From Methanobacteriota archaeon (GTDB lineage Archaea > Thermoplasmatota > Poseidoniia > Poseidoniales > Poseidoniaceae), in the NCBI GenBank assembly GCA_002710015.1, contig PAOW01000017.1, positions 1-41,775 on the forward strand: 41,775 nucleotides of DNA, in the 5' to 3' direction. The position numbers were made by a program, and so were the translations under genes. This document shows positions 1-21,192 of this stretch, in pieces (position 1 is the stretch's first letter; each line of letters begins with the position of its first letter). The notes below the pieces were generated by a model. It was given only the letters and a program-made list of their open reading frames with translations, did no database searches and had not been told where the DNA came from.

Positions 1-507
1 GCCGGAATCTTTCACCACGTTTCTCTACTTGTTTTGGGAACTGAAGATGCTGCGATATTTGCAAATCGTTCTATGCGATTAAGAGAAAAATCAGAGGACG
101 TTGAAGGGATGATTTACGGCCATGCTCTTCTGGCTCACATTGCAAAGGCCGATAATGACTTTGAGAAAAGTCAGCTTCACTTGCAAAAAAGACTCGACAT
201 AATACCAGAATCTGCAAAGTTTGAGAAAATGGAGGCTTTGGCAGACCTTGCACACTCTTACTCGTCTTTAGGAGAATTAGAACAAGCCCAAGCAATGTTG
301 GTTGAATCACTCACAATTGCTGAACAAATAGATGATTTGTCAGGAATCTTGGTCGCACGCTGGGGCCTAGCAGATCTTGCTGAGATATCGAACCAACCAG
401 ATGAAGCAATGGTCCAATTATCAGATATTATGACCAAATTCATGGAAGCAGGAGAGATAGTACCAGAACCCGTGAGGCAAAGGATTTCCAAACTTACGTC
501 CGAATAA
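1..507 (+). CDS. TPR-repeat protein, 3' fragment (5' end outside window)
   Basis: Frame is open from base 1 (AGIFHHVSLLVLGTEDAAIF...); helical repeats such as ALADLAHSYSSLGELEQAQAMLVESLTIAEQIDD are TPR-like. Confidence 0.7.
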   Translation, partial: AGIFHHVSLLVLGTEDAAIFANRSMRLREKSEDVEGMIYGHALLAHIAKADNDFEKSQLHLQKRLDIIPESAKFEKMEALADLAHSYSSLGELEQAQAMLVESLTIAEQIDDLSGILVARWGLADLAEISNQPDEAMVQLSDIMTKFMEAGEIVPEPVRQRISKLTSE

Positions 508-549: not shown

Positions 550-1764
550 ATGGAGTTTGATATTTTCTTCTCAATTTCTCAGACTCCTGACCACAATGGG
601 TATACTCCAACAGAAAAGGAGATGTTCTCAAATTATTACAGCCAACTTGCTGCTGCTGATAGATTAGGGTTTGGAGTTGCATGGGTTGCTCAAGCCCATC
701 TTTCAACTCAGACTCAGCAACTTAATTCCAAGCCCGTAGTTCCACATTGGAAAGGAGAAATTGGTCTTTGCACAGATTTTTGTCAACTTGCTCTTGAATC
801 CTTTCGAAGAACTAAAAATATCGATATAGGTTCTGCCGTGATAAGTTTGCTAGCCAGTGGTGGGCCAATCGCACAGGCTGAGAGAATCGCAAATGCAGTC
901 CAATTTTTATCCCATATTGATGATACCAGAAAACTGCATTTAGGGTTTAGTGCCGGAAGGTTTGAGTTTATGGCAAGACCGTATGGAGTATTCCCAAGAA
1001 ACGAGTTGGAGGAGGTCTGTTGGTCAGCTTTGAAGAGGAAAATATTCATGGAGGCGAGTGAAATTTTCTTGCGTCTCTTGAGAGGAGATATATTGAGATC
1101 TGATGATGTGATGGAGACCATTTTGACACGAGAAGATTTCAAAACCGAAGACGATTGGAATCAATCTAAACAAATTTGTGATGGAGAATCTGCTGATAGA
1201 ATTCGAATAGAAAGGAGATACAATTTCGAAGAAATATCCATAGTGCCAAAAGAGTGGCCAAGAGATAGGTTAGAACTAATCGCAGGAACACATGACGAAA
1301 AGGCTCAAGAATTTGTGAACAAGTTTTTACCAGTCAAGGTCTTTAATTTGTCAATAACCTCAGCAGATGTAATCAAATCAACACATGACAGAATGAGAAA
1401 AATATTCGCAGAAAAGGGCTTGGATTGGCAGAGAAGAGATATGCCTAGGACTACGTTTGTTTTCATTAACGCAGAAGAAGGTCTAACTCCCGAAGAACAG
1501 TCAATTGCTGCCAAAGAAGAAGCAAGGCAGGCATTGGGGGAATATTGGAAAGCATTGGAGGGAACACTTGACCCACAGAAGGTGGAGAAGGCTGCAGATA
1601 ATGCTTTGATTGGAAACCCCAGTGAAATTGTGAACCAAATAAAACAGCGCTTCGATCCTGATGACAGGTTAATGTGCTGGTTCGATTTTTTCAATCATGA
1701 TAATGACCGTGTCATTAGAAACATGGAAGCATGGTGGCGTGAGGTTGTGCCAATGTTGGGGTGA
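550..1764 (+). CDS. Luciferase-like (LLM class) flavin-dependent monooxygenase
   Basis: 404 aa; N-terminus MEFDIFFSISQTP...AADRLGFGVAWVAQAH and IDIGSAVISL...RIANAVQFLSHIDDTRKLHLGFSAGR are typical of the bacterial luciferase-like fold. Confidence 0.75.
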   Translation: MEFDIFFSISQTPDHNGYTPTEKEMFSNYYSQLAAADRLGFGVAWVAQAHLSTQTQQLNSKPVVPHWKGEIGLCTDFCQLALESFRRTKNIDIGSAVISLLASGGPIAQAERIANAVQFLSHIDDTRKLHLGFSAGRFEFMARPYGVFPRNELEEVCWSALKRKIFMEASEIFLRLLRGDILRSDDVMETILTREDFKTEDDWNQSKQICDGESADRIRIERRYNFEEISIVPKEWPRDRLELIAGTHDEKAQEFVNKFLPVKVFNLSITSADVIKSTHDRMRKIFAEKGLDWQRRDMPRTTFVFINAEEGLTPEEQSIAAKEEARQALGEYWKALEGTLDPQKVEKAADNALIGNPSEIVNQIKQRFDPDDRLMCWFDFFNHDNDRVIRNMEAWWREVVPMLG

Positions 1765-1768
1765 TAAG

Positions 1769-2884
1769 ATGAGTTTACGTCATGATAAAAATTCGGCTGT
1801 TGCTCCTGGAAGACCCGGTTCAGCGATTTATCCAGACTCACCGCTTGGGGAAGACGTCGAAGGGATACCAACCGGTAGAGACGTTGAATGGATGCCTCTA
1901 GTTGATTACAGGCGAAACGGCGTATCAGAAACCACAATTCATGGGGCAGTTGCTTGGTGTCATGGTGATGAGGTAATCCATTCATTTGGCGGGAATGTCT
2001 TGTGTTATGGCAGGTCTATGATGAAGCCATTCATGATAAAGGCCTTCACAAAGGAATTAGGTAGCCTTTCTTGGGAACAAAAAGCCATTTCAGTCGCTAG
2101 TCACAATGGAGACACTGAACACGTAGCTGCCGCGCAGTCACTGCTTGCAGAAGCGGAATGGCCTTTGATGCTTACACCTGTCGATGTTCCATTGATTCAA
2201 TTTGGAAGGCAGGTTAGGAGGCCAAGGCGCTGGTACCATACATGCAGTGGTGAACATGCTGCGATTCTAGCAGGATGCAGGGCTAAGGGATGGAATAGAG
2301 CAGGGTATACATTACCAACTCACAAGGTCTTCGAAGCTTACATGGAGCAATTACGAAGATTCTTGGGGGAGGATTGGCAACCACTCAGGATAGCCAAAGA
2401 CGGTTGTGGCCTTCCAACAGTTTCGAACACGGTTGCTGAATTAGCTAAAATTTATGCAGGTCTTGTCAGAGATAAAGAATCAGACTGGATTTGGGAAGCT
2501 ATGTGTAGACATCCCGATTTAGTCGGTGGTTTCAACAGGTTAGATTCAACAATCCTAAAGATTGGTGATGGCAAAGTAATCGCTAAAGAAGGCGCTGACG
2601 GTTTACTTGGAATGGCGATTGAGCACCCTGATTATCCTGATGGCCTGGGTATTGTTGTGAAGATTGCACATGGTTGGAATTCGCAAGCAACATGGTATGT
2701 AGCAAGAGCAATTTTGGGGTGCCTTGGAATTGAATTAAGAAACCCATATCCACTCAACAGACAGAAGGCATTTATTGTTCCAGGAATAGTACCTGAATCA
2801 ATGATTGATACTCTCAAAACAATACCAACATGGGATGAGTGGGATCCAGACCAAGACCGTTGGCATTATGAGGTGAATACATGA
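1769..2884 (+). CDS. Asparaginase_II-family (Rhizobium-type L-asparaginase) amidohydrolase
   Basis: Listed ORF starts at 1697, but ATG at 1769 (MSLRHDKNS) follows the upstream stop; motifs MKPFMIKAF, SVASHNGDTEHV, CSGEHAAILAGCRAKGW, KDGCGLPT. Confidence 0.8.
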   Translation: MSLRHDKNSAVAPGRPGSAIYPDSPLGEDVEGIPTGRDVEWMPLVDYRRNGVSETTIHGAVAWCHGDEVIHSFGGNVLCYGRSMMKPFMIKAFTKELGSLSWEQKAISVASHNGDTEHVAAAQSLLAEAEWPLMLTPVDVPLIQFGRQVRRPRRWYHTCSGEHAAILAGCRAKGWNRAGYTLPTHKVFEAYMEQLRRFLGEDWQPLRIAKDGCGLPTVSNTVAELAKIYAGLVRDKESDWIWEAMCRHPDLVGGFNRLDSTILKIGDGKVIAKEGADGLLGMAIEHPDYPDGLGIVVKIAHGWNSQATWYVARAILGCLGIELRNPYPLNRQKAFIVPGIVPESMIDTLKTIPTWDEWDPDQDRWHYEVNT

Positions 2885-4260: not shown

Positions 4261-4296
4261 AAACGGTACGACCTCTCGGGTATGTGGGGCACACAA

Positions 4297-5112
4297 ATGT
4301 CAGTTCACGCAAATGCAAAGAAAGTGACTACACATACTCTCCAGGAAATGAAAAGAGCTGGTGAAAAAATCACGATGCTTACAGCTTATGATTACAGCCT
4401 TGCCAAATTGGTTGACAGAGGTGGAGTAGACGTTATTCTTGTTGGTGATTCAGCATCAAATGTAATGGCTGGAAGAGATACAACAGTACCAATGAGTCTA
4501 GAACACATGATATATCACGCGCAATGTGTTGAGAGAGCAGTTGACAGAGCTTTGATTGTGGTAGACATGCCATTTGGTTCTTATCAAGGTAATTCTGCTA
4601 TCGCATTAGAGAGTGCTATTCGAATCATGAAAGAGTCTGGAGGGCACGCAGTTAAACTTGAAGGTGGCTCAGAAATAGTCGAAAGTATAAGCAGAATTCT
4701 GTCTGCAGGAATACCCGTTATGGGTCACCTTGGACTAACTCCACAATCGATTTACAAGTTTGGGACTTACACAGTGAGAGCCAAACAAGAAGCGGAGGCT
4801 GCAAAACTGATAGCGGATGCTAAAATTCTAGAAGACGCTGGATGCTTTGCTATTGTATTCGAGAAAATACCTGCTGATTTGGCAAAGCAGGTTAGTGAAG
4901 CAATCTCTATCCCGACAATTGGAATTGGTGCGGGTTCAGATTGTGACGGTCAAGTTTTAGTCTTGCATGACATGCTTGGAATTACAACTGACTTTAGTCC
5001 AAGATTTTTGCGTAGATACCTTGATCTAGAAAATCAAATTACAGGCGCAGTTGAACAATATTGCCAAGATGTAAGAAGTGGAGATTTCCCAAATTCAGAG
5101 GAATCATATTAG
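4297..5112 (+). CDS. panB: 3-methyl-2-oxobutanoate hydroxymethyltransferase (alternative start ATG 4282)
   Basis: [95 protein letters not shown] are PanB signatures. Confidence 0.93.
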
Positions 5113-5571
5113 TTTCTCAACAAGCACTGCATAAGGTAGTAGACAGGCAGAAATTCCAAAACCATGCCATACTCCATATCTGAAGGGTGGGTGTGACTTT
5201 TTGGGCCATGTTGCACACTGCCAAATCCACACAAAGAATGGAGCTGCCATATTGAAATAATTTGGACCAAGAGCCCAAAATATTGCCATAGACACACACA
5301 CTACACCAACTCCAATGGCATGTTCCTTGATGTTTCCGGAGTTTGTTAGGACACACAGAAGAGGTGCTGTCAATAGCGATGCTAACAAAGCGATAGACAT
5401 TGGTCCAGGTGGCATTCTTTCATCCACGATAATTACAGTAGATGCGATTAACACAAACGAGAACACAGAAGGCCACATAACGTGACGAAATTTCAAGTCC
5501 ACAATATCCCCCATGTGATGGCCGAGGAGGAACCGATGAATAGAAGATGCGGAACGTTTTGGGAATTGCAT
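5104..5571 (-). CDS. Small multi-spanning membrane protein, unknown function (start may be the internal ATG at about 5514)
   Basis: Up to 155 aa with several hydrophobic segments ([41 protein letters not shown]); 9 nt convergent overlap with panB. Confidence 0.6.
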
Positions 5572-6463
5572 GGCGAAAGGAGAAATCGTAGCGGGCTGTT
5601 TAGCTCCACACCCTCCTCATTTGGTGTATGCAGAAAATCCTCAGCAAAATGAACCGGTATCTGAAGGCGGATGGGAGCAGTTACGATGGGGCTATGAGAG
5701 GCTAAGAAAATCTCTCGAAGATGTAGATTATGATGTAATTGTCATACTATCGCCGCATTGGCAAACTTACATAGGAACTCACTTTGTTGGAGTTGAAAAA
5801 TGTTCATCAAAAAGTGTAGATCCCGTCTTCCCTAATCTGTTTAGATTCAACTACGACTTAGACATAGATGTCGAGTTGGCGCAAGCGATTCATGACAAAG
5901 CGGAAGAAAATGGCATGGCTGTGAAGATGATGAAAAATCCAGACTTTAGAGTCGATTATGGAACATTGGTATCCTGTCATATGGTAAGACCTGAGTGGGA
6001 TAAGCCGATTGTTTCCATATCATCAAACCGTAGTCTGTCATATTATTCGGTTGAAGTTATGCAAGAGATGATGCTAGAACTGGGCAGATCTACTGCCAAA
6101 GCGATTGAAGAAAGTGGGAAAAAGTGCCTCCTAATCGCTAGCAATTCTCTCTCACACCGCCACTTTGTTACGGAAACAAATCCTCCAGAAGACATGAGCA
6201 AAGAACACATTACAAGCCATGCAATGCATCTTTGGGACATGCGGATGATTGAATTGATGAGAGAAGGCAAGTCACAACAAATAATCGATGAGATGCCAGA
6301 ATTCTGTGAACAAGCAATCGCTGAAACCGATGGCGGGGCATTCACTTGGCTTCTATCTGCTATGGGAGTTCCAAATGAACCAGCAATATTGCACGGCTAT
6401 GGCACGATTATTGGAACTGGGAATGCTATCATGGAATGGCCGGTTCGAAACTGGAGTGCTTGA
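5570..6463 (+). CDS. LigB-family extradiol ring-cleavage dioxygenase, catalytic subunit (2-aminophenol 1,6-dioxygenase beta / AmnB-like)
   Basis: 297 aa; GCLAPHPPH (His14), VILSPHWQ (His63), SNSLSHRHF and acidic AETDGGAF region match LigB metal/catalytic positions. Confidence 0.82.
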   Translation: MAKGEIVAGCLAPHPPHLVYAENPQQNEPVSEGGWEQLRWGYERLRKSLEDVDYDVIVILSPHWQTYIGTHFVGVEKCSSKSVDPVFPNLFRFNYDLDIDVELAQAIHDKAEENGMAVKMMKNPDFRVDYGTLVSCHMVRPEWDKPIVSISSNRSLSYYSVEVMQEMMLELGRSTAKAIEESGKKCLLIASNSLSHRHFVTETNPPEDMSKEHITSHAMHLWDMRMIELMREGKSQQIIDEMPEFCEQAIAETDGGAFTWLLSAMGVPNEPAILHGYGTIIGTGNAIMEWPVRNWSA

Positions 6464-6465
6464 GG

Positions 6466-7854
6466 ATGAATGGAGAAGTAGTAAAATCGTTGATAATCCC
6501 AGCACATCCTCATCCTGTATTATGTCCTGAGAAGAATGAAGGATGGCAGAGAGTCAGGGACGCATTTGATGATGCCAGGAGACAAATTGAGGAAAGCGAT
6601 GCCGACCTAATCATAATTTATTCAACACTTTGGCCAAGTGTAATCGGTCATCAAATCCAGGCAGATCCAAATCCTGAATGGGTTATGGTCGATGCAGATT
6701 TTCACGATCTTGGGAGTATACATTACTCTTTGCGAATAGATTCAGAATTCGCGAAATCTTGGAATGAAGCGAACATTGCGAGAGGCTTGGAATCTAGAAC
6801 AGTTGCATACGATGGATTCCCAATCGATGTCGGTTCAGTTGTAGCATTAAAATTATTAAATCCGTATAACAGAATACCTGCGGTGATTTGTTCAACCAAT
6901 GTTTACTCAAACCGTGCAGAAACAACAATTCTTGCAAAATCTTGTATGGATGTCATCAAGGCTCAGGGCAGGAAGGCGGTTGCAGTTTCAGTGATGTCTT
7001 TATCAAATCGGATGTTCACAGAAGAAATAAAACCAGAAGAAGATAGAATTCATTCATTGAAAGATGATGAGTGGAATCGCAAAATATTGGAATTTTTGTC
7101 TGAAGGGAGACTTGAAGATGTTAGTCAGTTAAGTCGAACTATTCATGACCAAATAAGAGTAAAAAAAGTCGTAGCGTTCAAGCCTATGTGGTGGCTATCA
7201 GCTATGAATGCAAATCGAAACGATCTAACTGGTTCTGTTTTAGCATATGAGCCAATTCATGGCGCAGGTGCAGCAGTAGTTGTCTTAGATCCAGAATCCA
7301 ATGGAACAGGAGATAAGGAATATGACGAGGATGATGTTGAGTATTATGGGGGAGATAGAGATGTCCTCGACTCTAGTTCCAAGGTCATCAATAATGAGTC
7401 AAATAATGCCGGTCCTGATTTATTCGACCCTGTTGAAGGAGAAAATGCGGTTAATTCTGAAAAAGCCCCAAAACCAGTAGGTGCGTATCCCCATGCTAGG
7501 AGAGAAGGAGACCTAATCTATCTATCAGGAGTAGGCCCCAGACAACCAGGGGACAATTCAATTCCAGGTGGGCCAATTAAAGATTCAGATGGCAACATGC
7601 TTGACTATGACATAAAAGCTCAAACTAGAGCAGTGGTCGACAATATTGCAAGAATTTTAGAAGAGGCTGGATCATCTCTTGATAAAGTGATAGACGTCAC
7701 TTCGTTCTTAGTTGATATGGATAGAGATTTCCAAGGATATAACGAGGTATGGGCAGACACACTTGGACAAGTGGGACCGACAAGAACAACCCTTGCAATT
7801 AGAGCATTACCCACTCCAATAGCCGTCGAGATGAAAGTTATCGCAAGAGCATAG
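6466..7854 (+). CDS. Fusion: non-catalytic LigB-like subunit (AmnA-like) + acidic linker + RidA/YjgF domain resembling 2-aminomuconate deaminase (AmnD-like)
   Basis: ATG 6466 lies just after the upstream stop (listed ORF start 6436 is in the same frame). N-half aligns with the LigB fold but has YSTLWPS instead of SPHW. C-half KPVGAYPHARREGDLIYLSGVGPRQPG...DIKAQTRAVVDNIARILEEAGSSLDKVIDVTSFLVDM...GYNEVWADTLGQVGPTRTTLAI is RidA-like. Confidence 0.8.
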   Translation: MNGEVVKSLIIPAHPHPVLCPEKNEGWQRVRDAFDDARRQIEESDADLIIIYSTLWPSVIGHQIQADPNPEWVMVDADFHDLGSIHYSLRIDSEFAKSWNEANIARGLESRTVAYDGFPIDVGSVVALKLLNPYNRIPAVICSTNVYSNRAETTILAKSCMDVIKAQGRKAVAVSVMSLSNRMFTEEIKPEEDRIHSLKDDEWNRKILEFLSEGRLEDVSQLSRTIHDQIRVKKVVAFKPMWWLSAMNANRNDLTGSVLAYEPIHGAGAAVVVLDPESNGTGDKEYDEDDVEYYGGDRDVLDSSSKVINNESNNAGPDLFDPVEGENAVNSEKAPKPVGAYPHARREGDLIYLSGVGPRQPGDNSIPGGPIKDSDGNMLDYDIKAQTRAVVDNIARILEEAGSSLDKVIDVTSFLVDMDRDFQGYNEVWADTLGQVGPTRTTLAIRALPTPIAVEMKVIARA

Positions 7855-7989: not shown

Positions 7990-9393
7990 ATGGACATTAA
8001 ATCTACATCTGATAAATTGCTGAAAGGCGATATTTCCGGAGTAGTGTCTGACATAAAGTCCTCGATTGAGAGGTCATTATCGTTGATCGGTGTTATCATC
8101 GTGACAGTAGCTGCAAGTATTGGATCTGGTCTGTTTGTCTTACCTTCGTTTGCTACTGCCGTAATGGGGTCTGGTATCTGGTTGGCATTCTTAATTGCAG
8201 GTATTGTGTTCCTACCGGGAACTTACTCAAAATCAGAATTAGCATCAGCGATGCCTGACAATGGCGGTGCCTATGTCTATCTTGAGCGTTCCTTTGGTCC
8301 ACTGGTTGGAACAATATCTGGACTTGGACTCTGGGCCTCTTTCTTACTAAAATCAGCATTTGCTCTTATTGGGTTTAAGGCATACATGTATGCTGTAACC
8401 AATTATTTTGACATTACTACAAACGGAACTTTCGTAGTCATGTCTGCGTTGGTTTTAATCACCATTTTGAATATACTTGGTATCAAGAAAGTAAAGGCAT
8501 TTCAAACCCCGATTTTGGCTTTCACCACTGGACTGATATTGATCATATGCATATTCCAATTATTTGATGCGAGTTTTGACTTTTCCCGCCCGATTGAAGG
8601 AGCGATAGATCAAACTAAGTCAGACCCATTTTCAGTTGTTGAAGCGTCTGCACTAGTGTTTGTGGCATATGCAGGAATTTACAAGGCGGGAGCACTGGGC
8701 GGTGAGGTTAAGGACCCAGAAAAGAATTTACCACAGGGTATGCTGATTTCTCTATTGTTGATTACTCTGCTTTATGTTGTGGTTACATTCATAATGATGG
8801 GTTCAATTGAAACCGGAGTCTTGTTAGAAAACGGGGAGCCTAAAGAAGACCCAATATTTGCGTTTGTGGATGCAGTAGCATCCTCTAAAGTCAGCATTGC
8901 TTTGGCGTGTCTAGCAGTGCTGACCATGATTTCTGGTGCTCTATCTGGCTTATTAGCAGCCTCAAGATTCCTATTTGCAATGGCAAAGAGTAGTCTTCTA
9001 CCGGGGACGCTAGGTGATACTAACAAGAAGTTCAAAACTCCACATTGGGCCATCATATCCACTGCGGTCGCAATGGGAATTTGTATTCTAACACTACCAG
9101 TTAAGGACGTTGCAAAGCTTGCCTCAGGCTTCCAAATAATGGTAATTGTCGCCCTTAATGTCTGTGTAATTGTATTGCGCAAATCCAAGGATAAGGCTTC
9201 GTGGTATAATCCAAAATTCAAATCACCTCTTTACCCGTATGTCCAGATATTTGGAATAATCGCTGGTGGTTTGCTAATCATAATAATGGGAGAAAAGGCA
9301 CTATATGGAGCGCTTGCTGCAATAATTTTGGGAGTTTCAACCTACGCAATCTATGGTAAGAAGAACTACGTTGCAATAGAATCCTCTGAATAA
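7990..9393 (+). CDS. APC-superfamily amino acid permease
   Basis: 467 aa, about 12 TM segments; VAASIGSGLFVLPSF, PDNGGAYVYLERSFGPLVGTISGLGLW, FVAYAGIYKAGALGGEVKDPEKNLPQGM. Confidence 0.88.
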   Translation: MDIKSTSDKLLKGDISGVVSDIKSSIERSLSLIGVIIVTVAASIGSGLFVLPSFATAVMGSGIWLAFLIAGIVFLPGTYSKSELASAMPDNGGAYVYLERSFGPLVGTISGLGLWASFLLKSAFALIGFKAYMYAVTNYFDITTNGTFVVMSALVLITILNILGIKKVKAFQTPILAFTTGLILIICIFQLFDASFDFSRPIEGAIDQTKSDPFSVVEASALVFVAYAGIYKAGALGGEVKDPEKNLPQGMLISLLLITLLYVVVTFIMMGSIETGVLLENGEPKEDPIFAFVDAVASSKVSIALACLAVLTMISGALSGLLAASRFLFAMAKSSLLPGTLGDTNKKFKTPHWAIISTAVAMGICILTLPVKDVAKLASGFQIMVIVALNVCVIVLRKSKDKASWYNPKFKSPLYPYVQIFGIIAGGLLIIIMGEKALYGALAAIILGVSTYAIYGKKNYVAIESSE

Positions 9394-12071: not shown

Positions 12072-15000
12072 TCATTCCCAAGCTTCCCAGTCTGCCCTAT
12101 CTTGGTCCCAATAATACCACGTGCCGTCGTCGGCTTCAGCCCATGCTGTGCCATCTTCATCATCAATTCGATATTCGACCGCCCAGTCTGGTTGACTTGG
12201 AGTGTATGATTGGGGTGGTGGTTCACTTGGACCTGGACCTACCGGACCCGGTCCACTTGGACCAGCCGCTTGAGGCTGGTCATCATCATCATCGTCATCA
12301 TAATCATCATCATCGTCGTAATCAGATTCTCCTGATCTGAGTATCATGATAATTACAACTAGTAGAACTAGAACAACCAAAATTGCAAGTATTCCTCCTG
12401 CATAATACAAGACTCCTCCCGCTTCAAAGAATCCCATGAAGGTGCCTTCGACATTTATTTTTCCAGAGGCTTCCTTTCCGTCGACTCGTATTGTAACAGT
12501 CTGCTCCTCATCATCAAGTGTGGTTATTGTCCAATTTCCATTATCTCCTGCTTTAGCAGTCATACGCCCGGATAATTCTATCTGGGTATTTGGAGGAACT
12601 GGAATTTGGTTTTCCCAAGCATCATATGTTTTCACTTCGATATCGAAAGATTCCAACTGAAGTACTGATTCTTGTAGGATTGTTAACTCGATTCTATCCA
12701 CTGTTTGGTGCGCTGATACGGTTACAGTCCATTGGTTCTGGACACCGCTCGGTGCTCGGTAGTTGAATGTGTGAACTCCCTTTGTGGTCGCACTCCATGT
12801 ATACTGTCCTTCAGATCCTACAACAGGCTGCATTGTAGACGGAGGAACTGGTTTGTTATTTTCAGTCCAAATTACGCTCTCAGGGAATGTATTACCATCT
12901 TCATCCGTTCCTGTTATCTCTATGTTGTATACATCCCCTGCTTTAGCAGTATTTGCCAATACATCGATATCAATAGAAACCGAAACTCCATGGTTTACCG
13001 TGATATCAACAGTTTCACTAATGTTGTATCCACTTTCAGAAATAGCCCACGCAGTAATACTGTAATTCCCAACTTTAGTTGCTTCCCATACTCCAAGATT
13101 ATCATTGATAAGTGTAGTTATGTTTGTGGATAGACCAGTATCTAAATCGTCTAAAGTGTAGGATATGATTGAAGAATCGATAATGTTCCCATCGCTATCA
13201 TTTAGTAGAGGGATGAACGTTAAATCTTCGTCAGCATCTATGTTCTGAACCAAATTGCTAGGCTGAATAAGTGATACGCTAACCAATTCACCGTGGTCGA
13301 CCGAGATTGACAGGGTTACCTGAATTGGACTGCTTAGATTTTCATCAGAATAGCTTGCCCTTAATGTGTATAGGGAATCCGAAGCAAATACTGGAACAAA
13401 CATCGTAGAAGAGCCATATGTCATTTCTTGTAGAACACTTTGGTCATTGTAAATTACGTGCTCAACTGTCCATGCAACATTTTCTGTCCAACGGTTTCCG
13501 TCAGAGTCAATCGCTTTTACCTTAATTTCAATTTCGTCATCAGCTGTTATTTCTTGTAATGAACCGGTGGAATCCACAGAGTCAATTACTAGGACTAGGC
13601 CAGTTATCGCACCTTCAGTGACCTGAATTGTGACACTATTTTCAGTGCCAGCATAACTTGCTGTGAGTGTCTTAGTTCCTCGCCTTTGTGCATGCCATTC
13701 TGCTGGCAGCCCCTCGGTTATCATACCGTCACTGATAGTCCAATTTTCCATCGGAATTAACACAGGTAAACGGTTACCCATTATGTCAACTCTTGTTGTA
13801 TTAAGCCAAACGATATCATCTGCGGTGACTGCCGTGCTTGATGCTGCAATTTCTAGGTTTGCAATTTCACCATGAGTAACTTGGACTGGTATGGTATGAG
13901 TAATTCCACCAGTAGATTGCATGGTAATGTTGTAGTTACCAACAGTTATTGCGAAGTATGTACCGTTTGCTTCTGTAAATACACCGCCGCCAGCAGTCCA
14001 TGTAATTCCTCCACCCACTGCCAAATCTAGTTCATTGCCAAATTGATCGAGTAGTGTCCAATTCAGCTGGCAGGTTTTACCAGCGTGAATTATCTCCTCA
14101 CATCCTGTGGTTCTGTAACTAACTGGTGCGCCACCGACAACCTCAACATTGACTGTTATTATCTGCCCCATCCATTCAACAGAAACAGATTGTGAGCCCG
14201 CACTGTATGGATAGAATGTAGCCCCGACCATACTTCCGTTGCTCGGTGTGTAAGCAATAGTCAAACCCGGTACTGTATTTCCATGTTGGTCAACTACGCT
14301 TGCTTGTATTGTAAATGATTGATCAGCAGATATTGTTTCTTCAACATCATCTACAACTAGAGTGGTTGGTAGCCCAGGAGTTACGGATATACTCTGTGTA
14401 TCACATATGACTCCGAAACAAGCGGTTATGTTGTGGACTCCTACCAGTTGTGGCGTAAATAGTCCATTAACATCTATCGCACCATTTGTTGAACTCCATG
14501 TGACATTTTCTGCAATATTCCCTCCAACAGCATTAGTTAATATGTGTGAGAATTGAACCGGTGTGTCTGCATCTGTTGTTGATGAAACGGGAGTGATGGA
14601 TACAGTGTTTACATCTGTGTAGTTAATCTTGATCATTGGTCTCAACTCTAACGAGTCTTCACTGGAGTAGAACTCTACATGTGCAGCGTTTGCACCACTG
14701 GCTGGAGCGGCGATTAGAATCCAAGCATGGTCTCCGTTCATTGTCATTCCATTGTGACCTATGTCAATCCACACATCCGTATCTCCAGGTTGTATGGTTA
14801 CACTGGATATTGGATTAGCATCATATTCGATACCTGCGGCCATACCGCCAGCACTCCAAGGCGTTCCTGACTGTGAATTATTCCAAGTCGATGCGGACTC
14901 AGACCATGAGTTGGTGATGAGTCGATGAACGTAAAATGTCATTGGTACTGGGGTCGGCACATCAATCTGAAGGTTTAGTGATGCAGAATGTATCTTAGCA

Positions 15001-18000
15001 CTCATAGGAAGCGGAATTTGGCTGTTATCGAGTGCTATGATTGATCTACATTCTGAATTAGAGCCCTCACAATTAAATCCAACACTAAGATGATCGGCTC
15101 CGTGATTTGTGTTTGGTGAGTTACTACCAATGTAGGAATCCCTTATGTTGGTGTGTCCTAAATCTGCAACCTCATTACCGGTTTGGAATGTGTAAGTCCA
15201 AGTATGGTCATCATTGTATGTGTTGTTCACAGGTGCCCCAATAGCGAATGCCCTTCTGCTGGAGGAAGGCCCGGGTATGGATTCATTTATTGCTTGAACC
15301 CACCAACTGTATACTTCTCCAGCTACTAAGTCTTGTGAGAATGTGAAAGTTGTTCCATTTATTTCACTGTCTTCCCATGACTTGTATTTCACCTGTCCAT
15401 CACTTGTCGCAATCGTAACTACATATCCTGTGGCATTTACGACACTGTTCCATGTTAGTTGCGGTTTGTCTAGTGATTCTAGTTCCCAAGTAGAAGTGTT
15501 GTAAAGTATTGCTCCGTCATTAGGATATGTTAGAACAGGCTGAGCAGGCGGAATTATTCCGTCGACATTGTCTACGTAGTCTAGAATTAGGCGAGGTCTG
15601 AGTGACTCTTGAGCCGAGTTGTCATAGAATGTGTGACCAGATGATGGATTTCCAACAGACTTTAGCATAACGGTAAGAGTATCATTTCCATTGGCAGCAT
15701 TTGACTGCGCTAGTGATGTTATATCCCAAATTTGGACTCCAACTGTCGGAACTACAAACATTGTTGAGCGAGTAATTTCAGTATTCGAGCAATTGGGACT
15801 GGAATTCCACGTTACATTGTCCTCATCGAAATTGTCACAGGCATGAGCACTAACAGTTAGCGACGAAGTTCCTGAAACGTTATAGCGATACAAGGAGAGA
15901 AGCGCTGATGTAGGTGTCATAGTTGTAGGGAAAGGTAATTCACTGAGGTCAAAGGTAAGGATAATCTTTGATTCCCCAGATCCGCCAGAAGAGATTCCCA
16001 AATCCAATCTTCCATTGTTCCCTAGCTTCGTATTGGCTCTATTTGAATCAATAGTTGCATCAGGAATTCCTGGTAAACTACCAGTTTCATCAAACACGGA
16101 ACCATCGTAGAGAGTTACCGATTGGTTACCACTTCCATCATCGCTTCCGACAATGCCGGGTACTCTGTATGAGTGGACCTCTGACCACTTTCCAAGGCGG
16201 TGATCTTGATCAGCTCTAACTCTCCAGTATACCCAATAATCTCCGTTGGATAGGTTTTCGATAGTGTAAGACAAATTAGTTAGATCCCATATTCCGTCAT
16301 AGGTTGAGGAATTTGATAAATCGAATAGGAAGGTTTCATTTTCGTCAGTGAAATCGTCCGATGTTGAAATCTGCATTAGCCATTTACTTTGGTTTGTCTC
16401 AGCCGAAGACCAATTCAGTGTGTTTGAATCAGCACCCCTCGGTCTAGATGCGGTCTCATTCCAAATTGTGCTTCCATCAGCAGGTGCCATGTTAGTAGCA
16501 GCAGAAGGTAACCATTGAGTTCCAGTTCTCCAAGTTAATTCTAGCTCAGGTCTTTTTGTCTCGTCAGATATGTAATCACTACTAGCGAAATGCCACTCAT
16601 CTGTGGTATCATCGATAACGATGAAAGCGAGATTTATCTTGTCAGTTCCATCAGCATGTGCGTGTTGGACAGCATATGTGATGTCAAATTCAACGGTGTT
16701 ATCTTGGTACTCAAGGTATACAATTTCGAATGGCACCTCACATGACTCATCTGGCCATGCTGTTGACGAACCATTAGGACTATTGAAGGTCGCACTCGCA
16801 TTCCAGTTTTGTGTAACCTCACAAACAGCTATCCTAACAGTCTCCTGATTAGTTTCTCCACCACTTAGTTTACTGAGTGTTAAAGTGGCGTGAATATACT
16901 CATGTGTAGATGGTATAGGAATTGATGACCAGTCCACTTGGAGTAGAGATATGCTTTCATAATTGAGAGATGAGGTTAGATTTGATCTGCCCATTATCAG
17001 TCTATCACCAGATTCGTATCCTGAATTTGTTGACCCTGAATCTAGATATGTGTCCATAAAGATTGATGGATAATCAAGCCCCTCTACGATTTGTCCTTCT
17101 TGTAAAGCAATGCTTGCATCGGTTGAATTTATTTGCTCTCCTGTTAACGTGGGTATATGGAAAACAGTGCCATTACTTCTAGCACCTAGTATATCATCTG
17201 TTATCGGCTGCACAAACCACTTGTATGAATCACCAGTGGTTAGATTGTCAGGGCTTGTCCATGATTGATTTGTTAAATCCCAACCCTCTGATGATTCTCT
17301 GCTGTCGTATACAGTCCAACCCTCTCTTTCATCTGAGTAATCATTCCATATTACGACCCTCCAATCATCAACATTCGAGTTATTTGGATGGCTCCATGTC
17401 AACATTGGGGTTGCACCAGGTAGCAAAGCATGCGACGATGTGTCCCAAATTATCTCATCAACGCTAGGGCTTGTATTGTTTCCAGAAACCTCCGGGGACG
17501 ATGCATTTCCTGTTGTCCATGTCAGATTCACCCAAGGCCTCTCATTTTCATTACCACTAGTAGACGTGAAAATTGTTTGACCCTGTCCAATAGAACCGGC
17601 AATGGTTAGGAGTGCATGTGAGTTTCCATTCGCAAATGATTGTTGTATAATTTCAGTTATGTCAAATTCCATCCAATCAGCTGACGCACCAACTTTAATG
17701 TCGGCTATTTGTCCTCTATCTGCGCTTCCAATAGCACCAGGTGATGACCAATTATTTACTCCATCGTAGGTGGTTCCTGTTGCATTGGTATTCCAAGATA
17801 CCAAGGAGGAGTGAATTGAAATTGCATTATCTGTATCAGAGCCGAATTGCGCATATAGATTCAAAACAGCCTTGGAGATATGTGCGTTTTGAGGATTTGG
17901 CAGCTCAGTCAGTGGTATTTTCATTAGACCTGTAGCATTTTGTCCGGTGCTACTTGTTCCAACTCTAAATGTGGATGATGATGATTGGTCATTTGTTGAA

Positions 18001-21000
18001 GCTAGTCCGGTGTCAGCCACCCAAGTGTCTATGAAATTTGGTATGTTCAAATCAGGCATAGCTTCCCTGTGATGCAATTCAACCGCTGCGGAATCACTGC
18101 TTAAACTCCATGTTGTTAGGTCTGGTAATAAGAAGTGGAATGTGTTTGACCAGTTTCCAATTTGGTTGGTGATACTTGTAGCTCTAACTCGCCAATACCA
18201 TGTTTCCCCTAGATCTAAAGATGAGGCTACATCAAACGTCATATTTGTAACATCAAATCCAGAGTCTGTCCAACTTGTGGCCATGATTAGGTTTGCAGAA
18301 TTGAATGAATTTGTAGTATCCATCTCAATAGACCATCCTCCAACGTTAGTTGTTGCAGTGGAGTATGACCATTCAAGCTGTGGTGTATCTAGTGGAGAGG
18401 GGTTAATTCCGCTCTCAACAGACCATGAACCATTTAGCGGTGAGGTCAAAACAGGTTCAGAAGGTATTGCATCTGAACCTGGTAGGTATACGAACGAGAT
18501 TTCAGGTCTGTTTGCTGAATTAACATTGTTTGGATAGAACAATGCGCTTCTATCAACTCCGCTACCAACACCAACAATTCCTACAATTAGATCAACAGCT
18601 CTGTCTTCACGCATGGCGTTTTGAACTGCAAGTGTGACGTCAAATTCTACCCAGTCGCCAGCAGAATATGAGTTTCCTAAGGACTCAGAATCTTGTAGTC
18701 CTGCTCTTTCCCATCCCTTAGCACCTGATGTTCCCCATGAATTTACACCATCAAAACTTGACCAAGTTGCTTTTTCTTCCGTCCAATTATTTTGTCTGCT
18801 CTCCCATACTCCGACAGTAGGAGTGCCTGAAGGATAATCTGCTAATCGCATCTTCAAGGTTGCAGTTTTCACAGCATAGCCGTCTGGAATGAGGTGACTC
18901 TTCAAATCACATCCCATTAATATCGTGCTCTCAGACGGGAATGTGTTGTAAGCAACTTGCATATCTTCTTCGTCATTGTAGTTACTGTTAGGTGTTCCAC
19001 TGTCTATGTATGTGTCCATACAACTTGGAGCATCACCTGCTGTTGTAGCATTCCCATGTGATAGTCGCAATCTATGATCATCATCCTGTAAGTATTCAGA
19101 TTCTAAACTGGATACCAAGAAAGAGGAAGTTGACCACCATGAGTGATGGTGGCTTGAAGAATCAATCTGTGCAAGTCTCCAATGATACATTACACCTTCA
19201 TCAAGAGAATCGGAAGAGGATATTGACCAATTACCATCAGTCTCGCTAAATTCGCTGGAAGTTGCAGTATTGAATGAGTGAATTATGTCTCTATATTCAG
19301 CATCGGTTGAAACTTCCATCAACATGTCACCAGCCCAGTTTATTGTTCCATCCCACGAGAGAGTAGGCATGGTATTTGCAGATAGGTTGTGGCCGGATAG
19401 ATTCCAAACAGGATGGCCGTCAAGTGGACTGAGATGAGTTGGGATTGCTGGCGGCCCATTGCTACCCCAATCATATGTAATCTCAAGTTTAGGTTTATTA
19501 CAGGAATTTGCTTCACTACTGCACAAATTGACAAATTGAGAGGTTGATACGTCTTGTCCCCAAGTCGAAGCAACCATCATCAAATCGAGAGATTCAGTTG
19601 ATAGTGTGGTAGTTTGAGTTGCGGAATTACTCTGATCGTTCCAGTATTGTAAAGCAGCAGTAATATTTACATCGATTGTTGCAGAGCTTTGGTCTCCAGT
19701 AAAGTCACCTATCGACATAGATGGCAATCTTCCTCCGTCATCCCAATCATTGACTCCGTCGTACTTTCTCCACGTTACAGAAGATTCTTCCCAGTTTTCT
19801 GCATTCATTATGTGAAGGCTAACATCTGCTGAACCTGTGTATGCGCTTCTGGACATTACAAGATTAGCCGAAATTATTGATGAATTTGAGTGTAGACCTA
19901 TATCGTCCATGTTTATGCGCATTAGTCCATATTGGTTTGAGTTTGAAGAAGAACCGACTGTGATGTTTTCAGAACTGCCCATGTTGGTATTTCTTGCAGC
20001 ACTGCTCGAATCTACAAAAGTATCTTCTATGGTGTTCTCGGATAAGCTTAGGTCATCAAAATCAATAGAAATTTGTCCATAGCCATCTGAGATTGTTACG
20101 TCATGGTATGGTAAATGGAAATATCCAATTTCCCAATCTCCTATGGTATCTGTGGAGTCAACCGAACGGATTCTGTAATGTATTGTAGTTCCGTTGCTTA
20201 GAGAATCTTGCGTCGGTATCGTAATAGAACCACTGTTAGTGTTTATTGTGAACATGGAACTATTGTCGTCAGAGTTGTAATACCAAGTATCGTCATTTTC
20301 GTCCTTGAACTGTGGGCTTAGAGATAACTGAACTTGTGCATCCGTGCCTGTAAATGCATCCCATGTTATCTCAGGATTGGTTTCAGCAGTCAGCACAAAC
20401 TGAGTAGTATCCATCAACGCCGCACCGTCTTCTACAAAGTTAGGGTTTAGTGTTCCGCCATTAGTATGAGAGCCATTTTGGTGCGTAACTGATAAGCTAG
20501 GTCTGCTGTTGGTGGACAGAGATTCTGACATGTGACATGAGTAAGGTGCTCCTGTTGCAGCAACCAATATGTTGAATGTACTTTTATTGTTGATAACAGC
20601 ATCTTGAGCAATTGCTGTAACATTAATTTGGAATGTATTGTTATCGTATCCGTAGAATGGAGGCTCCCAATCACCTCTGTCGCTGGTATCATCAGCACCG
20701 TCCATACTCCAGAATACCCCATTATCAGGCCCAGTCCATGAGGCTGAGGACTCAATCCAAGCCCTCTTCAAAGTCGCTGCGTAAATGTTGATGCTGTCAA
20801 TTTCTAAAGGATTGATACCACATGTCAGACTGAGGGTTGCGCTTGTCACCATATCTCCTGAGGGAACTGTATTATTGAATGAGATTAATATCCTTGATTC
20901 ACCAGTAATCGTCTGGCCTAAATCCACGGTTTCGCTACTGCCGTAATTTGTGTTGGGCGAAGATGAATCTATTGCAGTGTCATTAAGTAGCGTCATCGCA

Positions 21001-21152
21001 GTGGTTGTTTTAAGGATGGAAATCTCATCTTCAAGTTCGAAGTCATTCCATTCAGGAACAGCTTGTGGTACAGCCAAATCTGCAAATAAAAACATAATTA
21101 CCATCAGTAATGCACTAGAGATTTTGCGACTGTTACGGGTGTTAATTGACAT
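12072..21152 (-). CDS. Giant (about 3,026 aa) surface protein: alternating DNRLRE-type and Fn3-like modules, then Ig-like repeats, TM, Asp-rich stretch, Trp-rich tail
   Basis: ATG at 21152 (listed ORF begins at a TTG at 21161); signal peptide SSALLMVIMFLFADLAVPQA; repeats such as DTFVDSSSAARNTNMGSSENITVG and YYWRVRATSITNQIGNWSNTFHFLLP; TM LYYAGGILAILVVLVLLVVIIMIL. Confidence 0.9.
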   Translation of the reverse strand: MSINTRNSRKISSALLMVIMFLFADLAVPQAVPEWNDFELEDEISILKTTTAMTLLNDTAIDSSSPNTNYGSSETVDLGQTITGESRILISFNNTVPSGDMVTSATLSLTCGINPLEIDSINIYAATLKRAWIESSASWTGPDNGVFWSMDGADDTSDRGDWEPPFYGYDNNTFQINVTAIAQDAVINNKSTFNILVAATGAPYSCHMSESLSTNSRPSLSVTHQNGSHTNGGTLNPNFVEDGAALMDTTQFVLTAETNPEITWDAFTGTDAQVQLSLSPQFKDENDDTWYYNSDDNSSMFTINTNSGSITIPTQDSLSNGTTIHYRIRSVDSTDTIGDWEIGYFHLPYHDVTISDGYGQISIDFDDLSLSENTIEDTFVDSSSAARNTNMGSSENITVGSSSNSNQYGLMRINMDDIGLHSNSSIISANLVMSRSAYTGSADVSLHIMNAENWEESSVTWRKYDGVNDWDDGGRLPSMSIGDFTGDQSSATIDVNITAALQYWNDQSNSATQTTTLSTESLDLMMVASTWGQDVSTSQFVNLCSSEANSCNKPKLEITYDWGSNGPPAIPTHLSPLDGHPVWNLSGHNLSANTMPTLSWDGTINWAGDMLMEVSTDAEYRDIIHSFNTATSSEFSETDGNWSISSSDSLDEGVMYHWRLAQIDSSSHHHSWWSTSSFLVSSLESEYLQDDDHRLRLSHGNATTAGDAPSCMDTYIDSGTPNSNYNDEEDMQVAYNTFPSESTILMGCDLKSHLIPDGYAVKTATLKMRLADYPSGTPTVGVWESRQNNWTEEKATWSSFDGVNSWGTSGAKGWERAGLQDSESLGNSYSAGDWVEFDVTLAVQNAMREDRAVDLIVGIVGVGSGVDRSALFYPNNVNSANRPEISFVYLPGSDAIPSEPVLTSPLNGSWSVESGINPSPLDTPQLEWSYSTATTNVGGWSIEMDTTNSFNSANLIMATSWTDSGFDVTNMTFDVASSLDLGETWYWRVRATSITNQIGNWSNTFHFLLPDLTTWSLSSDSAAVELHHREAMPDLNIPNFIDTWVADTGLASTNDQSSSSTFRVGTSSTGQNATGLMKIPLTELPNPQNAHISKAVLNLYAQFGSDTDNAISIHSSLVSWNTNATGTTYDGVNNWSSPGAIGSADRGQIADIKVGASADWMEFDITEIIQQSFANGNSHALLTIAGSIGQGQTIFTSTSGNENERPWVNLTWTTGNASSPEVSGNNTSPSVDEIIWDTSSHALLPGATPMLTWSHPNNSNVDDWRVVIWNDYSDEREGWTVYDSRESSEGWDLTNQSWTSPDNLTTGDSYKWFVQPITDDILGARSNGTVFHIPTLTGEQINSTDASIALQEGQIVEGLDYPSIFMDTYLDSGSTNSGYESGDRLIMGRSNLTSSLNYESISLLQVDWSSIPIPSTHEYIHATLTLSKLSGGETNQETVRIAVCEVTQNWNASATFNSPNGSSTAWPDESCEVPFEIVYLEYQDNTVEFDITYAVQHAHADGTDKINLAFIVIDDTTDEWHFASSDYISDETKRPELELTWRTGTQWLPSAATNMAPADGSTIWNETASRPRGADSNTLNWSSAETNQSKWLMQISTSDDFTDENETFLFDLSNSSTYDGIWDLTNLSYTIENLSNGDYWVYWRVRADQDHRLGKWSEVHSYRVPGIVGSDDGSGNQSVTLYDGSVFDETGSLPGIPDATIDSNRANTKLGNNGRLDLGISSGGSGESKIILTFDLSELPFPTTMTPTSALLSLYRYNVSGTSSLTVSAHACDNFDEDNVTWNSSPNCSNTEITRSTMFVVPTVGVQIWDITSLAQSNAANGNDTLTVMLKSVGNPSSGHTFYDNSAQESLRPRLILDYVDNVDGIIPPAQPVLTYPNDGAILYNTSTWELESLDKPQLTWNSVVNATGYVVTIATSDGQVKYKSWEDSEINGTTFTFSQDLVAGEVYSWWVQAINESIPGPSSSRRAFAIGAPVNNTYNDDHTWTYTFQTGNEVADLGHTNIRDSYIGSNSPNTNHGADHLSVGFNCEGSNSECRSIIALDNSQIPLPMSAKIHSASLNLQIDVPTPVPMTFYVHRLITNSWSESASTWNNSQSGTPWSAGGMAAGIEYDANPISSVTIQPGDTDVWIDIGHNGMTMNGDHAWILIAAPASGANAAHVEFYSSEDSLELRPMIKINYTDVNTVSITPVSSTTDADTPVQFSHILTNAVGGNIAENVTWSSTNGAIDVNGLFTPQLVGVHNITACFGVICDTQSISVTPGLPTTLVVDDVEETISADQSFTIQASVVDQHGNTVPGLTIAYTPSNGSMVGATFYPYSAGSQSVSVEWMGQIITVNVEVVGGAPVSYRTTGCEEIIHAGKTCQLNWTLLDQFGNELDLAVGGGITWTAGGGVFTEANGTYFAITVGNYNITMQSTGGITHTIPVQVTHGEIANLEIAASSTAVTADDIVWLNTTRVDIMGNRLPVLIPMENWTISDGMITEGLPAEWHAQRRGTKTLTASYAGTENSVTIQVTEGAITGLVLVIDSVDSTGSLQEITADDEIEIKVKAIDSDGNRWTENVAWTVEHVIYNDQSVLQEMTYGSSTMFVPVFASDSLYTLRASYSDENLSSPIQVTLSISVDHGELVSVSLIQPSNLVQNIDADEDLTFIPLLNDSDGNIIDSSIISYTLDDLDTGLSTNITTLINDNLGVWEATKVGNYSITAWAISESGYNISETVDITVNHGVSVSIDIDVLANTAKAGDVYNIEITGTDEDGNTFPESVIWTENNKPVPPSTMQPVVGSEGQYTWSATTKGVHTFNYRAPSGVQNQWTVTVSAHQTVDRIELTILQESVLQLESFDIEVKTYDAWENQIPVPPNTQIELSGRMTAKAGDNGNWTITTLDDEEQTVTIRVDGKEASGKINVEGTFMGFFEAGGVLYYAGGILAILVVLVLLVVIIMILRSGESDYDDDDDYDDDDDDDQPQAAGPSGPGPVGPGPSEPPPQSYTPSQPDWAVEYRIDDEDGTAWAEADDGTWYYWDQDRADWEAWE
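12276..12324. repeat. Low-complexity trinucleotide tract (cat/cgt/cat-rich) encoding the Asp-rich juxtamembrane segment
   Basis: ctggtcatcatcatcatcgtcatcataatcatcatcatcgtcg reads DYDDDDDYDDDDDDD on the minus strand. Confidence 0.8.
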
Positions 21153-21192
21153 GCGACTCAACCACTCATAGCAGGAGCCAGTATAGTTTCCT

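Follow-up and report, generated by a model that had tools for sequence, protein, structure and literature searches.

The gene at positions 6466 to 7854 of the window (the whole stretch of 41,775 nucleotides analyzed here, on contig C17 of a 1.7-Mb archaeal genome) raises two questions: whether a ring-cleavage subunit and a deaminase are truly joined in one polypeptide, and which pathway such a protein would serve. An initial annotation, made from the sequence alone, had taken the gene for a fusion of AmnA with a 2-aminomuconate deaminase-like RidA domain and had named 2-aminophenol and 3-hydroxyanthranilate as the substrates to assay. Both family calls stood, but the occurrence of the fusion in bacteria and the tryptophan setting of the operon had been missed. 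We propose, with a probability of about 0.65, that the fusion protein serves ring cleavage and deamination within a degradation of tryptophan via 2-aminophenol. What is known of the substrates of Marine Group II archaea, which are abundant in the plankton but uncultured, comes mostly from genomes; for these archaea the proposal predicts a specific, near-universal route of amino acid catabolism, each enzyme of which is open to testing.

Architecture and family assignment of the fusion gene

The gene is one uninterrupted open frame (Table 1). A second in-frame ATG lies at position 6436, and the alignment of homologues favors 6466 as the start. The LigB-fold subunit, linker, and RidA domain that had been read within this single frame were all recovered, with PF02900 matching the first half at 43.5 bits (cut-off, 26.3) and PF01042 matching the last part (residues ~328 to 462) at 86.3 bits (cut-off, 27.3). 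AlphaFold models the protein as two folded parts with a disordered linker between them. In the linker (about residues 287 to 327), pLDDT is mostly 28 to 50 and stays below 50 across residues 294 to 321, and the alignment bears out the acidic character ascribed to it earlier.

Table 1. Genes and gene parts of the predicted operon in the window
Positions	Strand	Feature	Evidence
34..507	+	3' part of TPR protein, cut by contig start; conserved operon neighbor	TPR families
550..1764	+	Luciferase-like flavin monooxygenase (LLM), proposed kynurenine Baeyer-Villiger monooxygenase	PF00296, 24.2 bits (below cut-off); fold
1697..2884	+	Asparaginase-II-like hydrolase, proposed aspartate beta-(2-aminophenyl) ester hydrolase	PF06089, 170.9 bits
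2881..4260	+	2-Aminomuconate 6-semialdehyde dehydrogenase-like protein (AmnC role)	PDB matches all AMSDH
4282..5112	+	PanB, ketopantoate hydroxymethyltransferase; conserved Poseidoniia neighbor	TIGR00222 over cut-off; neighborhoods
5570..6463	+	AmnB-like catalytic beta subunit, 2-aminophenol 1,6-dioxygenase	8ihg_A, E 5e-115
6466..7854	+	AmnA-AmnD fusion, 462 aa	AmnA-type alpha subunit, linker, AmnD-type RidA domain
6466..7314	+	Alpha-subunit half (AmnA-like, LigB fold, metal ligands absent)	3vsg_A, E 1.5e-42; tree; residues
7315..7446	+	Linker	Conserved GDKEYDEDDVE..GDR.VLD, then variable acidic disordered stretch (alignment, pLDDT)
7447..7854	+	RidA (AmnD-type) half	6izh, E 6.6e-26; tree, 97/99
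7990..9393	+	APC-family amino acid permease	PF13520, 149.3 bits; neighborhoods

The best phmmer match of the alpha half (the first ~283 residues) is 3vsg_A, the alpha subunit of 2-amino-5-chlorophenol 1,6-dioxygenase, and together with the alpha-domain tree this match bore out the presumed relationship to AmnA. As had been recognized, the half lacks the SPHW metal motif; it has T-L-W at positions 54 to 56, and the threonine and tryptophan are kept across the alpha family.

For the RidA half, the best match in the PDB is 6izh, a 2-aminomuconate deaminase, with the runner-up at an E value of 6.2e-21. The suggestion that this half is closer to AmnD than to housekeeping RidA was upheld by the RidA tree, where it groups with AmnD/AmnE, apart from generic and archetypal RidA, with support of 97/99. 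The RidA domains of the pathway join AmnE and bacterial AmnD-type proteins (97/99); the outer part of this tree is weak because some housekeeping rows are very long-branched. All four of the cleft residues conserved in AmnE, Ser35, Gly36, Arg117, and Lys135 (PMC6742747), are present in the window's RidA half. Lys135 and an Arg-Thr-Thr motif (AmnE numbering) are common to this half and AmnD-type proteins and are absent from four other RidA sequences compared. Arg56, a hexamer residue of the AP-3 enzyme, is Asn in the window's RidA half; it is probably not a defining AmnD trait, because a residue other than Arg also occupies this position in two of four proteins from the AmnD clade.

The RidA tree ruled out a generic RidA identity. 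The half could alternatively function as a generic imine deaminase that protects the dioxygenase rather than as a 2-aminomuconate deaminase, given that RidA proteins are promiscuous and that an AmnD-unique catalytic residue is not proven. The strongly supported AmnD/AmnE grouping, the shared Lys135 and Arg-Thr-Thr motif, and the two further RidA-family genes in the window's genome all speak against such a role, which we regard as very improbable. On the sequence evidence, the gene is an AmnA relative fused to an AmnD-clade RidA.

The enzymes encoded upstream agree with the amn assignment. AmnB is 53 to 58% identical to bacterial AmnB proteins, and His14, His63, Glu252, His196, and Tyr130 are conserved in all homologues covering the site; the first four, corresponding to the two iron-binding histidines, the iron-binding glutamate, and the catalytic histidine, are also present in the CNB-1 protein. 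AmnB and the AmnA half are thus predicted to be a 2-aminophenol 1,6-dioxygenase with its active-site residues kept. For the dehydrogenase, the seven best PDB matches are all AMSDH (E values, about 1e-126 to 1e-132). Its best NCBIfam model, TIGR03216, scores below the cut-off of that model. The catalytic Cys (GQIC) and Glu (ELGG) align with those of AMSDH, as do the Asn of SPWN and the Arg of RDLR.

Occurrence of the fusion and organization of the cluster

The fusion was found at full or nearly full length and in one open frame, with 60 to 91% identity, in over 150 further Poseidoniia (Marine Group II) genomes, including full-length, single-frame matches in the window's own family. A search with the fusion matched 305 of the 340 genomes of the class and 37 of the 38 high-quality genomes. 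In most genomes examined of the second family (MGIIb) and of MGIII, the beta, alpha, and RidA genes are separate and adjacent. A scan of species-representative genomes with the neighboring LLM brought up loci from other phyla, and 12 loci outside the class Poseidoniia contained the fusion in one frame, among them loci of an uncultured proteobacterium, a Thermoplasmata archaeon from groundwater, and members of the Acidobacteriota, Planctomycetota, and Myxococcota. This conservation in a single frame, within the class and outside it, ruled out a frameshift or an assembly error joining two genes, the artefact considered in the initial annotation, and the bacterial loci ruled out a fusion confined to archaea.

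As stated earlier for the known 2-aminophenol pathways, AmnA and AmnD are encoded by separate genes in the reference clusters examined, those of Comamonas CNB-1, Ensifer, B. cenocepacia, and Novosphingobium; in the Ensifer locus (L084), RidA genes precede AmnB and are not fused. In the alpha-domain tree, the pathway alphas are all separate from the classical amn alpha subunits, and about three changes between the fused and split states are needed. An early fusion with later splits would fit this tree; separate gains are also possible. Compared with the amn pathway of Pseudomonas AP-3, Burkholderia LB400, and Comamonas CNB-1, the cluster thus has the same four lower families (AmnB, AmnA, semialdehyde dehydrogenase, and RidA-type deaminase) but joins two of them in one polypeptide, with alpha subunits that form a clade of their own. 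It differs further in its upstream enzymes, namely, tryptophan 2,3-dioxygenase (TDO), a deformylase, LLM, and the asparaginase-like hydrolase, and no DmpG-type aldolase was found. Neither the AmnA-AmnD fusion nor a junction of the upper kynurenine pathway with the lower amn pathway is described in the open-access papers searched; other literature may contain an earlier account.

The natural operon extends beyond the part contained in the window, because contig C18 ends with the other half of the TPR gene, which is preceded there by genes for an SDR and an alpha/beta hydrolase. The true start of the asparaginase-II-like hydrolase gene is probably at 1769, past the LLM stop. PanB is probably not a pathway step. 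The APC permease gene is a conserved neighbor of the fusion at most of the Poseidoniia loci inspected, and the permease possibly takes up the substrate.

In MGIII genomes, the cluster opens with TDO. The collinear order TDO-SDR-LLM-Asn2-ALDH-AmnB-AmnA-RidA (Asn2, asparaginase-II-like hydrolase; ALDH, aldehyde dehydrogenase) was found in MGIII archaea and at bacterial loci, including those of Acidobacteriota, Planctomycetota, and Myxococcota. Among 45 loci from neither Poseidoniia nor Actinobacteria, 20 have LLM, Asn2, ALDH, AmnB, and AmnA all on one strand, and contig ends cut many of the rest. Several MGIIb genomes (L075 to L079) have AmnB-AmnA-RidA away from LLM-Asn2-ALDH; a conserved membrane protein of ~480 aa with a weak PAP2 match is encoded upstream of their AmnB-AmnA-RidA genes. 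The conserved SDR encoded before LLM (L083:1652-2413, L080:14566-15357) has SNxxR in place of the classical catalytic YxxxK (73 sequences) and has no place in the scheme proposed below.

Probable association with tryptophan catabolism

Of the 340 genomes of the class, 307 encode TDO (306 over the Pfam cut-off of PF03301), and the window's own genome does so at C33:48662-49660; the members tested do not reach the stricter NCBIfam equivalog cut-off. In a set of 64 Poseidoniia genomes, kynureninase scored over its cut-off only once. It did not do so in any of 22 further genomes with LLM from outside the Actinobacteria, although AmnB is encoded in 21 of these. The single Poseidoniia kynureninase (L119, G333:C29:6106-7323) may be a contamination or an acquisition.

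The step that would follow TDO is represented by three unrelated deformylase-like families. A candidate arylformamidase, KynB, is encoded next after the cluster at 11 of 13 bacterial or Thermoplasmata loci and scores 194 to 202 bits on TIGR03035 in the bacterial loci (cut-off, 223); it was found in none of 49 Poseidoniia genomes. Of these 49, 23 encode a formyltransferase-like protein and 25 an alpha/beta hydrolase, never both, so that 48 carry one or the other and a single genome (G280) carries neither; the genomes being related, no P value is attached to this exclusivity. The formyltransferase-like protein occurs in MGIIb and MGIII and the alpha/beta hydrolase in most MGIIa, with three genomes of the window's family having the former instead of the latter. 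These archaeal candidates (L083:905-1642, L081:4848-5564, L065:17090-17836, and L066:12565-13368) have the appearance of a non-homologous gene replacement. Three unrelated families of this kind in one slot fit the prediction of an N-formylkynurenine deformylation step, for which the archaeal proteins are assigned as candidate deformylases.

One alternative, given that AmnB, AmnA, the aldehyde dehydrogenase, and RidA match the amn genes one by one, is that the cluster degrades free 2-aminophenol or other aromatic amines from seawater, in the manner of the amn clusters of pollutant-degrading bacteria, and that its link with TDO is incidental. We consider this improbable: in many phyla the cluster has TDO and a formylkynurenine deformylase at its flanks, nearly all archaea of the open ocean carry it, there would be no explanation for LLM and the hydrolase, and the DmpG aldolase that is specific to amn clusters downstream was not found. 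The operon very probably belongs to a tryptophan pathway, rather than to the use of free 2-aminophenol or 3-hydroxyanthranilate, and the assignment of the cluster as a whole to tryptophan is one that we hold with good confidence.

Proposed route from kynurenine through 2-aminophenol

With the classical kynurenine pathway (TDO, formamidase, KMO, kynureninase, and 3-hydroxyanthranilate dioxygenase), the cluster has in common TDO, a deformylase, and the intermediates 2-aminomuconate semialdehyde and 2-aminomuconate. It differs in having LLM and the hydrolase in the place of kynureninase and a LigB-type 2-aminophenol dioxygenase for ring cleavage. Any route from kynurenine to 2-aminophenol must exchange the side chain of the ring for a hydroxyl group, which a Baeyer-Villiger oxidation with aryl migration does. 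In this reaction, kynurenine (C10H12N2O3) plus one oxygen gives aspartate beta-(2-aminophenyl) ester, hydrolysis of which yields aspartate and 2-aminophenol. LLM and the hydrolase, otherwise without explanation, fit these two steps.

A sequence search of the PDB with LLM gave no match. Its AF2 model (pLDDT, 91) has its best PDB folds in the luciferase family, to whose fold type II Baeyer-Villiger enzymes also belong. One of these, 3,6-diketocamphane monooxygenase (4uwm), ranks 26 to 27 among the matches with 14 to 16% identity, and the fold match of LLM to luciferases and other monooxygenases is equal to or better than that to Baeyer-Villiger enzymes. On this model, LLM is a candidate Baeyer-Villiger enzyme. 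Elsewhere, LLM genes occur in other settings. In Actinobacteria, where AmnB does not accompany it, LLM is encoded close to the genes for the alpha and beta chains of tryptophan synthase (L123:9001-10227, L166:8995-10236) or beside TDO and a methyltransferase (L124:9001-10206); these genomes carry kynureninase-like genes, and a separate biosynthetic use of LLM is possible there. A homologue with 43% identity lies on the Streptomyces clavuligerus megaplasmid (L088:9001-10245), with no pathway partners within 9 kb.

The hydrolase scores far above the PF06089 cut-off (25 bits) and, like class 3 (Rhizobium etli-type) asparaginase (7os3, 8cly), has both Ser-Lys pairs, with Ser107, Lys110, Ser135, and Lys297 present in 75 of 75 sequences. 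Its zinc site is Cys/Glu/Cys in 64 of the 75 and Ser/Gln/Asp in the other 11, in contrast to Cys/Lys/Cys in class 3 asparaginase; that is, the lysine is replaced by Glu or Gln and the cysteines are replaced in part. The protein is for this reason not filed as an asparaginase, and its chemistry may differ, since the zinc site departs from that of the solved class 3 enzymes and also varies. The altered site is consistent with a changed leaving group, the proposed substrate being an aryl ester, and the action of the family on the beta-carboxyl of aspartate would suit ester cleavage.

In the proposed scheme, TDO would convert tryptophan to N-formylkynurenine, which would be deformylated to kynurenine by KynB in bacteria, by the formyltransferase-like protein in MGIIb and MGIII, or by the alpha/beta hydrolase in most MGIIa. 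LLM would then carry out a Baeyer-Villiger reaction in which the aryl group migrates and an oxygen atom comes to lie between the ring and the former keto carbon; the product would be L-aspartate beta-(2-aminophenyl) ester, and the asparaginase-II-like hydrolase would split this beta-aspartyl ester into L-aspartate and 2-aminophenol. AmnB and the AmnA half would open the ring to 2-aminomuconate 6-semialdehyde, the aldehyde dehydrogenase would oxidize the semialdehyde to 2-aminomuconate, and the RidA half would deaminate the latter to 4-oxalocrotonate and ammonia. We find the complete Baeyer-Villiger and ester mechanism reasonably likely. Weighing against the scheme are the fold match of LLM, which does not favor Baeyer-Villiger enzymes, the altered and varying zinc site of the hydrolase, the SDR that has no place in it, the separation of the two gene groups in several MGIIb genomes, and the lack of a DmpG-type aldolase. 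Only a little less confidently, we suggest a widespread undescribed tryptophan route in which a Baeyer-Villiger LLM and an asparaginase-fold esterase replace KMO and kynureninase in nearly all MGII/III archaea and several bacterial phyla, often with a fused ring-cleavage/deaminase subunit.

Luciferase-like enzymes catalyze several kinds of oxygenation. LLM could accordingly be a ring hydroxylase that converts kynurenine to 3-hydroxykynurenine, with the hydrolase standing in for kynureninase and AmnBA cleaving a 3-hydroxyanthranilate-type aminophenol, and the linkage with TDO and the absence of kynureninase would fit such a route equally well. The hydrolase family, however, acts on the beta-carboxyl of aspartate rather than on the C-C bond of an aryl ketone, the dioxygenase belongs with the 2-aminophenol enzymes, and a carboxylated ring would need a decarboxylase before the AMSDH step, whereas none of the 3-hydroxyanthranilate type was seen in the cluster. 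We therefore judge ring hydroxylation unlikely and favor the Baeyer-Villiger route.

It is also conceivable that the pathway is not mainly degradative but makes a product such as picolinate, the cyclized form of 2-aminomuconate semialdehyde. In Burkholderia LB400, picolinate is reported to form from 2-aminophenol (PMC3790839), and the actinobacterial LLM homologues beside tryptophan synthase genes or TDO and a methyltransferase would agree with a biosynthetic use. The dehydrogenase and deaminase, however, would drain the semialdehyde and are conserved with the ring-cleavage genes, which leaves a mainly biosynthetic pathway with very little probability compared with the degradation of tryptophan.

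Within that degradation, the joining of AmnA to AmnD would keep the deaminase beside the ring-cleavage enzyme and hold unstable intermediates close. Such tethering is sensible given the instability of 2-aminomuconate, which could not be prepared for the crystal study of AmnE (PMC6742747); a channeling benefit is plausible, at roughly even odds. The gene would offer a natural covalent fusion for studying how 2-aminomuconate is handled. If the scheme is true, it would provide a new chemical solution within a textbook pathway, assign two uncharacterized enzyme subfamilies, and offer a biological source of 2-aminophenol.

In the ARO bacterial microcompartment of Actinobacteria, AmnAB and a semialdehyde dehydrogenase likewise act on 2-aminophenol, the precursor of which was stated as unknown; that system differs from the present cluster in being encapsulated in a protein shell (PMC10470539). 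A connection through Pseudonocardia was considered and dropped. Its locus (L166) is the sole LLM locus with a microcompartment shell gene and the genome is without AmnB, so no link to ARO is claimed.

Beyond 4-oxalocrotonate, no DmpG-type downstream aldolase scored over its cut-off, and the FAH-family matches present are too general to assign. A PF07063 2-oxoadipate dioxygenase/decarboxylase gene directly after KynB in one bacterial cluster (L139:16043-16849) gives a hint of a reduction of 4-oxalocrotonate to 2-oxoadipate. Elsewhere in the window, the reverse strand encodes a 3,029-aa protein (positions 12072 to 21161) with matches to CBM96 carbohydrate-binding and disaggregatase-related repeats, and a 961-aa protein (positions 30326 to 33211) with a CD36 family match of 49 bits, over the Pfam cut-off, which is unusual for an archaeon.
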